64,000 nt of DNA from Chloroflexota bacterium (GTDB lineage: Bacteria; Chloroflexota; Anaerolineae; Anaerolineales; Villigracilaceae): positions 1 through 64,000 of the forward strand of contig JACAEM010000034.1 in the NCBI GenBank assembly GCA_013388855.1. Reading direction: 5' to 3'. Shown one piece after another: positions 8,831 through 11,053 of the stretch (the stretch's first letter is position 1; the number at the start of each line of letters is the position of its first letter). The notes under the pieces are model-generated. The model did no database searches. It had not been told where the DNA came from and saw nothing but the letters and a program-made list of their open reading frames with translations. A program made the translations under genes and the position numbers.

Positions 8831-11053
8831 TCAGCCAGTCTGTGATCCCGGTTTCGCAAGCAGGGTTGCGATGCTTTTCAATTCCAGCCACCACTGTTCC
8901 TTGGGGCGCTGGTGTTCGGCATCGATCATGCGGTCGAAGTCACGCATGTCGTGGAAGTGGATCTGTCCCTTCTCCATGCCGATGAAAGCGCTGTTGTATT
9001 CCTTCTTGTTGCATTGCTCGATCAGGTATTCCAGGCACATGCGCGCCAGCCGCGTTGCCTGCACACGGTCGAACGGCGACGGGTCGCCGCCCTGCTGCAA
9101 ATGCCCAAGGATGGCGGGACGCACATCGAACACATCCCTGCCTTCCTCTTCAAAAAGGGCGCACATGAATTCGGTGGTGTACACGGGGTTGGCATACTCA
9201 TTGCGGATCATCAACCCCAGCCGCTTGCCGGACTGGAATCCGCTCAGAAGTTTTTCCACATCCACTTGCAGGTCGCGCAGTTTGACGCCCTCCTCGTGCA
9301 GATAGACGCGTTCCGCGCCGGTTGCCATCCCGCCCATCAACGCCAGATAGCCGCAGTAATGTCCCATCACCTCCACGACGAAACAGCGCCGCGTCGCCAC
9401 CGCCGATTGTTTGATCTTGTCCACCGCATCCACGATGCTGTTCAACGCCGTATCCGCGCCGATGCTGAACTCGGAACCGGGCAGGTTATTGTTGATGGAG
9501 GCAGGCAGGCAGATCATGGGGATGTTGAAACTCGGGAAGTTCGGGCGCTCCTTCAACATGCCGTAGGCCGCTTCATAGGCGGTCCAGCCGCCGATGATCA
9601 GCAGCGCGTCGATGCGATGGTCTTCGATGGCGCGCGCAATGGCATACAGGTCACGCCCTTTGGGGACGTGGCGCGTCGTTCCCAGCATCGAGCCGCCGCG
9701 TGACGCCCAGCCGCTGACGCTCATCCAGTTCATCTCCTCCATATCCCCGTCGATCAAACCCTCGAACCCGTTGCGGACTCCCAGCATGATGTGCCCCATG
9801 TCGAGCCCCAGGCGGATCGCGGCGCGCCCGGCGGTGTTCATACCCGGGGCAGGCGCCCCCGCGTTCAACACTGCGATGCGGAAACGCTTCTTCGCTGGGT
9901 CAATCGGATGCGGCAGGGCGCGCACCATCGTTTTAAAGGTATTGAAGGCATCCCTGAACGAGGAGCTACGCAGAGACATGGCGCGCTCGTAATCTTTGGC
10001 GTTGATCGCCTCCGCCACCGCCTGCGTCTTGCGCACGCTTTCCATCAGCGGCAGGCGTGTCATGCGGTTGTTGCGGATGCCGATGACCACCGGTTCATCC
10101 TCCGGTTTGGCAGAGAGGATGGTGTTGACCGCCTCATACCCCATCAATGTGCTCAAATTGCGGTCGAAGGCACTGGGGCGTCCGCCGCGCTGGACATGCC
10201 CCAACACGGTCACGCGGACCTCCTCTTCGAGTTTTTCTTCGAGCAGGCGCTGGACATCGCTGGAGCCGATGTAGTTGCCGTTCCGGTCGCGCGCGCCCTC
10301 AGCAAGGATCACGATGCTATCGCGGCGGCCAGCCTTCCGTCCGGCGCGGAGGCGTTCGACCAGCACATCCTGCCAGTTCTCCACATCCGGCGGCGCTTCG
10401 GGGATGAGCACCCAATCCGCGCCGCACGCCAGCGCGCCCATCAGGGCAAGATAGCCGCAGTTGCGTCCCATCACCTTGACGACGAACGTTCGCTGGTGAC
10501 TCGCTGCAGTACTGGTGATGGCGTCCACGGCTTCGGTGATGCGGTGAAGCGCCGAGTCGGTGCCGATGGTCATGTCGGTGCCGGAGAAGTCGTTGTCGAT
10601 CGAGCCGACCAATCCCACAATGGAAAAGTTCGGGTATTTGGCGGCTTCCTCCGCGCTGATTTCGCCCCTTTCCACGAGTTCGGAGATCAGCCCGGGCCAC
10701 TCCTGCCGGAAGATGTTCGCGCCGGTCAGCGAGCCGTCGCCGCCGATGACGATGAGACCGTCGATTCCCGCCTTGACCAGATTTTTCGCCGCCTGCCTGC
10801 GACCATCGCGCGTGCGGAATGCTTCGCATCTCGCCGACCCGATGATGGTCCCGCCCAATTGAAGGATGCCCCCCACCGAATCCCAATCCATCTTGCGGAT
10901 GTAGTCGCCGTCATCCACCAATCCCTGGTAGCCTTCGTAGATCGCGTACACTTCCGCTCCCCTGTCCAACGCCGTGCGGACCACTGCCCGCACCGCGGCA
11001 TTCATGCCCTGTGCGTCGCCGCCACTGGTAAGTATTCCAATTCGTCTTGTCAT
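8831..11053 (-). CDS. Eukaryote-type tandem 6-phosphofructokinase
   Basis: The 740-residue protein contains two PFK domains in tandem, unlike the usual ~320-residue single-domain bacterial PfkA. The N-terminal half keeps active-site motifs: GGDGSLTGA at about 104-112 and [20 protein letters not shown] from about 150, then [10 protein letters not shown] and GHVQRGG. The C-terminal half carries the same fold markers ([26 protein letters not shown]) but has GGW where GGD is expected and INNN in place of IDND. It therefore probably lost catalysis and may be regulatory. Motif wording and the closing [10 protein letters not shown] segment match animal and fungal PFK closely. It should phosphorylate fructose 6-phosphate with ATP; the GGD motif argues for ATP rather than PPi. 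It is a single-gene unit with its own terminator. Confidence 0.92.
   Translation of the reverse strand: [740 protein letters not shown]

Follow-up and report, generated by a model that had tools for sequence, protein, structure and literature searches.

A eukaryote-type tandem phosphofructokinase in Chloroflexota and the probable bacterial origin of the PFK-1 fusion

Since 1984, the tandem duplication in PFK-1 of animals and fungi has been presented as part of how the eukaryotic enzyme came about. In reviews, the complexity of that enzyme is traced to a pfk gene that was duplicated and fused in tandem (PMC12203962, 2025; PMC2990764). For the 2025 superfamily review the duplication is a eukaryotic characteristic, and the part of it used here mentions no bacterial case (PMC12203962). 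The same part describes how the C-terminal ATP pocket of eukaryotic PFK was lost and the F6P pocket was turned into a sugar effector site (PMC12203962). We found no report of a bacterial tandem PFK in the open (non-subscription) literature. It seems unreported there that two bacterial lineages commonly carry PFK of "eukaryotic type" and that its fusion is probably bacterial. The NCBI model would call the protein described below a 6-phosphofructokinase, so such sequences are already in the databases.

The window protein and its carriers

The window is the whole stretch of Chloroflexota DNA analysed here, 64,000 nucleotides long. It carries a gene for a tandem 6-phosphofructokinase of 740 aa on the minus strand (8831..11053; all features below are on this strand). 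The open reading frame is intact. It runs from ATG to stop exactly at 8831-11053 and has no internal stops. Pfam finds two PF00365 (PFK) domains with 655 bits. TIGR02478 (6PF1K_euk, NCBIfam) matches residues 3-734 with 1030.7 bits, where the curated cut-off is 708.4 bits. An earlier note, made from the sequence alone, had read the gene as two fused PFK domains closely matching animal and fungal PFK. This is borne out by the two Pfam domains and by a phmmer match to the human enzyme, which lies far beyond chance at 812 bits (E=4e-243) and runs co-linear through 732 residues. The motifs quoted in that note are all present, and the human counterpart of its 10-letter motif is PKEQWWLKLR.

Among solved structures, the human platelet, liver and muscle PFKs score highest, at about 800-812 bits and co-linear over the whole chain. 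The yeast PFK subunits come next at 630-671 bits, and bacterial PfkA reaches about 250 bits with one half covered. The window protein is 51% identical to human PFKP, which is more than the 45% between human PFKP and yeast Pfk1. An AlphaFold2 model built with 13 sequences has a pLDDT of 84.5 and a pTM of 0.87. The best solved structure for the predicted fold is human PFKP (4rh3), with a TM of 0.95 and an rmsd of 1.8 over 736 columns. Single-domain bacterial PfkA gives a TM of 0.39 with half of the chain covered.

The window protein clearly belongs to the tandem PFK-1 family (TIGR02478 / IPR009161). The names of these entries imply a restriction to eukaryotes, which is not a molecular property, and it fails because bacterial carriers are found. 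These carriers alter the range of the family, not the membership of the window protein. It falls outside the prokaryotic ATP-PFKs (TIGR02482 PfkA; single domain, about 320 aa), being 740 aa long with both halves outside the single-domain clade. It also lacks the D104/K124 donor motif of PPi-PFK, as the N half has GGDG and GSIDND.

The surroundings of the gene can be described briefly. Its G+C is 61%, compared to 54% across the window. The stretch 3492-7825 encodes a NACHT/TPR STAND-type ATPase and, directly after it, a radical SAM protein whose N-terminal segment is Cys-rich (CQCDCDTGDCAC). The gap from the radical SAM gene to the PFK has small ORFs at 7822-8385 that resemble translated non-coding repeats (PSPSLKGRG / PSPRGEG-like).

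The distribution of full-length tandem PFKs was examined at several scales. They are present in 17 of 41 genomes made up of the window genome and 40 relatives, and in 42 of 400 evenly sampled Chloroflexota; the latter carriers span nine family codes, and some are single-contig genomes. A class of another phylum, here called class 2, has them in 30 of 56 genomes. By the markers S7, S12 and EF-G, the class 2 genomes fall outside a well-supported Chloroflexota group (100/99). One MAG that is of the same phylum as class 2 is filed under Ca. Binatia. The same profile that is positive in Chloroflexota and class 2 finds no tandem PFK in 399 Pseudomonadota. A scan of 2.9 million viral contigs gave no relative. 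No close copy turned up in plasmid records; the matches listed are single-domain pfkA, and all matches are below 60% identity. The occurrence within genera is patchy, which implies losses or transfers.

One can imagine that contaminating DNA in metagenome assemblies, from eukaryotes or from other phyla, produces this distribution. Many of the matches come from MAGs, and the window genome is one as well. One Chloroflexota-type copy, L041, comes from a MAG filed elsewhere (Candidatus Binatia SKYG48), lies on a 3.5-kb contig and groups with the Chloroflexota copies in the tree. It is probably Chloroflexota DNA in the wrong bin. However, four Chloroflexota genomes with a tandem PFK are single contigs (G154, G169, G201, G272), the class 2 copies lie on long contigs and the window's own contig is 266 kb. 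The genes are intronless, and their bacterial neighbours are conserved, including adjacent PFK genes. Contamination is thus excluded for the family by long contigs and complete genomes, and we give it practically no chance as the general explanation, with single records such as L041 as possible exceptions. It must be noted that a second Chloroflexota-type copy, L043, is in a MAG filed under Gemmatimonadetes (J002). Its host genome is outside the Chloroflexota by S7, S12 and EF-G, and the search around its phylum covered 2 genomes.

The two halves of the chain

Residues are compared between halves in E. coli PfkA numbering. The N-terminal half (aa 3-347; 10013..11047) is predicted to be catalytic from PF00365 and its residue set. 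It keeps all of the catalytic and substrate residues that were checked: R72, D103, G104, D127, D129, R162, R171, E222, R243, H249 and R252. Nine of these were counted in 72 tandem proteins and are invariant except for R>K at R243 in one eukaryote. The catalytic base loop GSIDND (aa 150-155; 10589..10606) aligns with E. coli TIDND, which holds D127 and D129. Together with it, GGDG (aa 104-107; 10733..10744) makes an ATP-type phosphate-donor motif, compared to GGDD/PKTMDND in the PPi-type paralogue of the same genome. This half would convert F6P and ATP to F1,6BP and ADP. By alignment it has an insertion that is missing in E. coli PfkA (aa 116-143; 10625..10708). This insertion is 27-28 aa long in all Chloroflexota-type and eukaryotic members and 19-28 aa in class 2. 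A linker joins the halves (aa 348-388; 9890..10012). The linker segment is found in all three groups and has 47-50 residues in class 2, Chloroflexota-type and eukaryotic proteins alike.

The C-terminal half (aa 389-705; 8939..9889) is also a PF00365 domain, and it is predicted to be non-catalytic and regulatory. The earlier note had pointed to GGW in place of GGD and INNN in place of IDND. Both are there. In GGW (aa 488-490; 9584..9592) the Asp of the ATP site is gone (D103>W); this position is W in 39 of 47 Chloroflexota-type proteins and F in 6 of 6 eukaryotes. In ASINNN (aa 518-523; 9485..9502) both catalytic Asp residues are gone, with D127>N and D129>N. R171>H and R252>Q complete the losses among the residues compared. 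R162, E222, R243 and H249 hold the sugar phosphate in PfkA. Their equivalents in this half, R556, E619, R645 and H651 (9101..9388), are kept, and across the 72 tandem proteins these positions are conserved with rare K/T exceptions. Near the C terminus is PKEQWW (aa 717-722; 8888..8905). Its QWW is present in 47 of 47 Chloroflexota-type proteins and both mammalian ones; the three class 2 proteins examined have QWF.

This is the decay pattern described for eukaryotic PFK. The C half would be a former catalytic half that has lost ATP binding and phosphate transfer while keeping its sugar-phosphate pocket. Like its counterpart in human and yeast PFK, it would serve regulation and stability, and the chain is most likely tetrameric. 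That the second half is degenerate and presumably regulatory, as the note had proposed, is supported by residue conservation in the 72 proteins.

Not every tandem PFK has decayed to the same point. The INNN site reads S/N in eukaryotes, and several bacterial relatives keep IDNN or IDND. D127 is kept in the C half of 19 of 19 class 2 proteins and 10 Chloroflexota-type proteins, D129 in 7 Chloroflexota-type proteins, and R171 in 18 class 2 and 19 Chloroflexota-type proteins. None of the three is kept in the sampled eukaryotes. R252 is Q in 45 of 47 Chloroflexota-type proteins and 6 of 6 eukaryotes, and class 2 has the E. coli-like R. The position of R154 (PFKM K557) follows the same division, with K in 47 of 47 Chloroflexota-type proteins and 6 of 6 eukaryotes, and the E. 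coli-like R in class 2.

The pocket residues R556, R645 and H651 of the C half are present. A search for 6-phosphofructo-2-kinase (PF01591), run without a positive control genome, gave no match above the cut-off in the window genome (99% complete) and 12 other tandem-bearing genomes. This implies that the effector is probably not F2,6BP. The pocket probably reads another sugar phosphate, for example F6P or F1,6BP. The citrate-site lysines tested in human PFK-M are K557 and K617 (PMC2990764). The window protein has K548 and Q607 at these positions. The first lysine is kept but the second is replaced, so citrate inhibition is predicted to be weak.

The note had also called the single-domain enzyme typical of bacteria. 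That is true in general, but the window genome has three PFK genes: the tandem gene, a single-domain ATP-type PfkA and a PPi-type PFK. The last two (L001, L004) are divergent neighbours outside the window, at 19094-21063 of contig C11 (genome G000). The PPi-type enzyme is a single domain of 420 aa with GGDD and PKTMDND. In several Chloroflexota, one or two PFKs of about 400 aa, relatives of this PPi-type enzyme, lie about 0-130 bases downstream of a tandem gene and in the same orientation. The arrangement occurs at L042, L044, L045, L046, L069, L074, L077, L078 and L080. Such a gene order would suit the joint production of two or three PFKs that differ in phosphate donor.

Having two other PFKs in the cell makes it conceivable that the tandem protein is mainly non-glycolytic, for instance a scaffold or sensor that works alongside them. 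The frequent position of tandem genes directly upstream of other PFKs fits this too. However, the full catalytic set of the N half is kept in 72 proteins, and it is improbable that a mainly non-glycolytic protein is what we are looking at. The reading we prefer is an ATP-PFK with a regulatory C half.

One fusion behind the bacterial and eukaryotic enzymes

IQ-TREE was run under LG+C20+F+G4 PMSF on 79 sequences, made up of halves and single-domain enzymes. In the resulting tree the bacterial and eukaryotic N halves share one clade (100/96), and the C halves share another (100/94). The single-domain PFKs stand apart (91/91). The duplication and fusion occurred once and underlie both the bacterial and the eukaryotic copies.

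The obvious alternative is that bacteria and eukaryotes each fused their own tandem enzyme and then converged. A tandem fusion could recur. There is also L101 (genome G509, contig C57 26518-28557), a tandem PFK of 797 aa that has diverged very far, scores 447 bits to TIGR02478 and has a strongly decayed C half. It may be a separate second fusion or a fast-evolving member. Convergence can be evaluated directly on the halves tree. An independent bacterial fusion requires the bacterial halves to group together, and imposing this costs 169 log units (AU p=0.0005). The same constraint on the eukaryotic halves costs 140 log units (AU p=2e-7). The co-linear similarity also extends to the linker and the N-half insertion. 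Separate fusions are hardly credible against this. The shared origin with eukaryotic PFK that the note had put forward therefore stands, as the halves do not fall with ordinary PfkA and independent fusion is rejected.

Direction of transfer and comparison with known systems

A single fusion still had to happen somewhere, and the note had taken no side on the direction. The eukaryotic sample consists of six opisthokont sequences from the PDB (mammals and two yeasts), and the yeast Pfk1 and E. coli PfkA in the trees are PDB sequences. Both halves were concatenated, and the tree was rooted with single-domain PFKs aligned to each half. This doubled outgroup is a device. The rooted tree is (class 2,(eukaryotes 99/98, Chloroflexota 98/97)), with 100/100 at the node that joins eukaryotes and Chloroflexota. 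A full-length tree without an outgroup also separates Chloroflexota-type and eukaryotic proteins from class 2 (100/100), with the monophyly of the Chloroflexota poorly supported at 61/18. Two placements that nest the eukaryotes inside the Chloroflexota were tested and are weakly disfavoured (p=0.025 and 0.036).

One can also picture a fusion born in a eukaryote that then moved to the Chloroflexota and, separately or earlier, to class 2. The very high similarity to animal PFK and the patchy presence in Chloroflexota would suit this. The single halves do not reject eukaryotes as the first branch either (AU p=0.29 and 0.45). Their rejection comes from the rooted concatenation (p=2.9e-5; 8.5e-5 without fungi) and depends on joining the halves and on the doubled single-domain outgroup. 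Class 2 copies lie outside the group of eukaryotes and Chloroflexota, and their branching order is that of their hosts in the S7/S12/EF-G tree. Some bacterial C halves keep the ancestral D127, D129, R171 and R252, all of which are gone in the sampled eukaryotes. A gene that came from such eukaryotes would need reversals at these residues. We consider a eukaryotic origin unlikely.

The simplest account of the rooted concatenated tree and the ancestral C-half residues is a bacterial fusion that was later acquired by an ancestor of animals and fungi. We argue that the fusion probably arose in bacteria and that eukaryotes acquired the tandem gene. It would predate the split between the class 2 and Chloroflexota lines. 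The ancestor of the animal and fungal gene would have come from the line that also yielded the Chloroflexota genes. Taken as a whole, with an ATP-PFK N half, a regulatory C half, a tetramer, sensing of something other than F2,6BP and a single bacterial fusion, we give this account a probability of roughly 0.78. We hold with a little less confidence, though still as likely, that eukaryotes received a finished enzyme from a relative of the Chloroflexota, that the C half was already turning into a sugar-phosphate regulatory site there without an F2,6BP signal, and that living bacteria keep the stages of its decay.

A bacterial fusion would turn a textbook eukaryotic innovation into an instance of gene acquisition. 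Living enzymes could then be used to test in what order catalytic residues gave way to effector sites. The stages are C halves with D127, R171 and R252 in class 2, IDND in some Chloroflexota and INNN in the window protein. Natural two-headed PFKs from cells that seemingly have no F2,6BP would be useful for studying the origin of F2,6BP regulation.

Three known systems are close enough to compare. The PPi-type PFK of the window genome, which sits beside the tandem PFKs in relatives, is of the same superfamily and is a probable pathway partner, but it is a single-domain enzyme with GGDD / PKTMDND. Single-domain ATP-PFK (PfkA of E. coli and G. stearothermophilus) has the N-half catalytic residues and the ATP-type GGDG in common with the window protein. 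PfkA is half the length, though, and the tandem halves are two clades of their own, each half with W in place of the effector residue R54. The closest systems are human and rabbit PFK-1 (PFKP, PFKM, PFKL) and fungal Pfk1/Pfk2, which likewise have two co-linear halves, a linker and the N-half insertion at 45-51% identity. The catalytic N half, the pattern of C-half loss and the predicted fold are the same. The window protein differs in having a bacterial host and no yeast-type N-terminal extension. Its C half has lost its residues as N/N and H171, whereas eukaryotes have S/N and G171. PFKM has K617 at the citrate site where the window protein has Q607, and no PFK-2 was found in the window genome.
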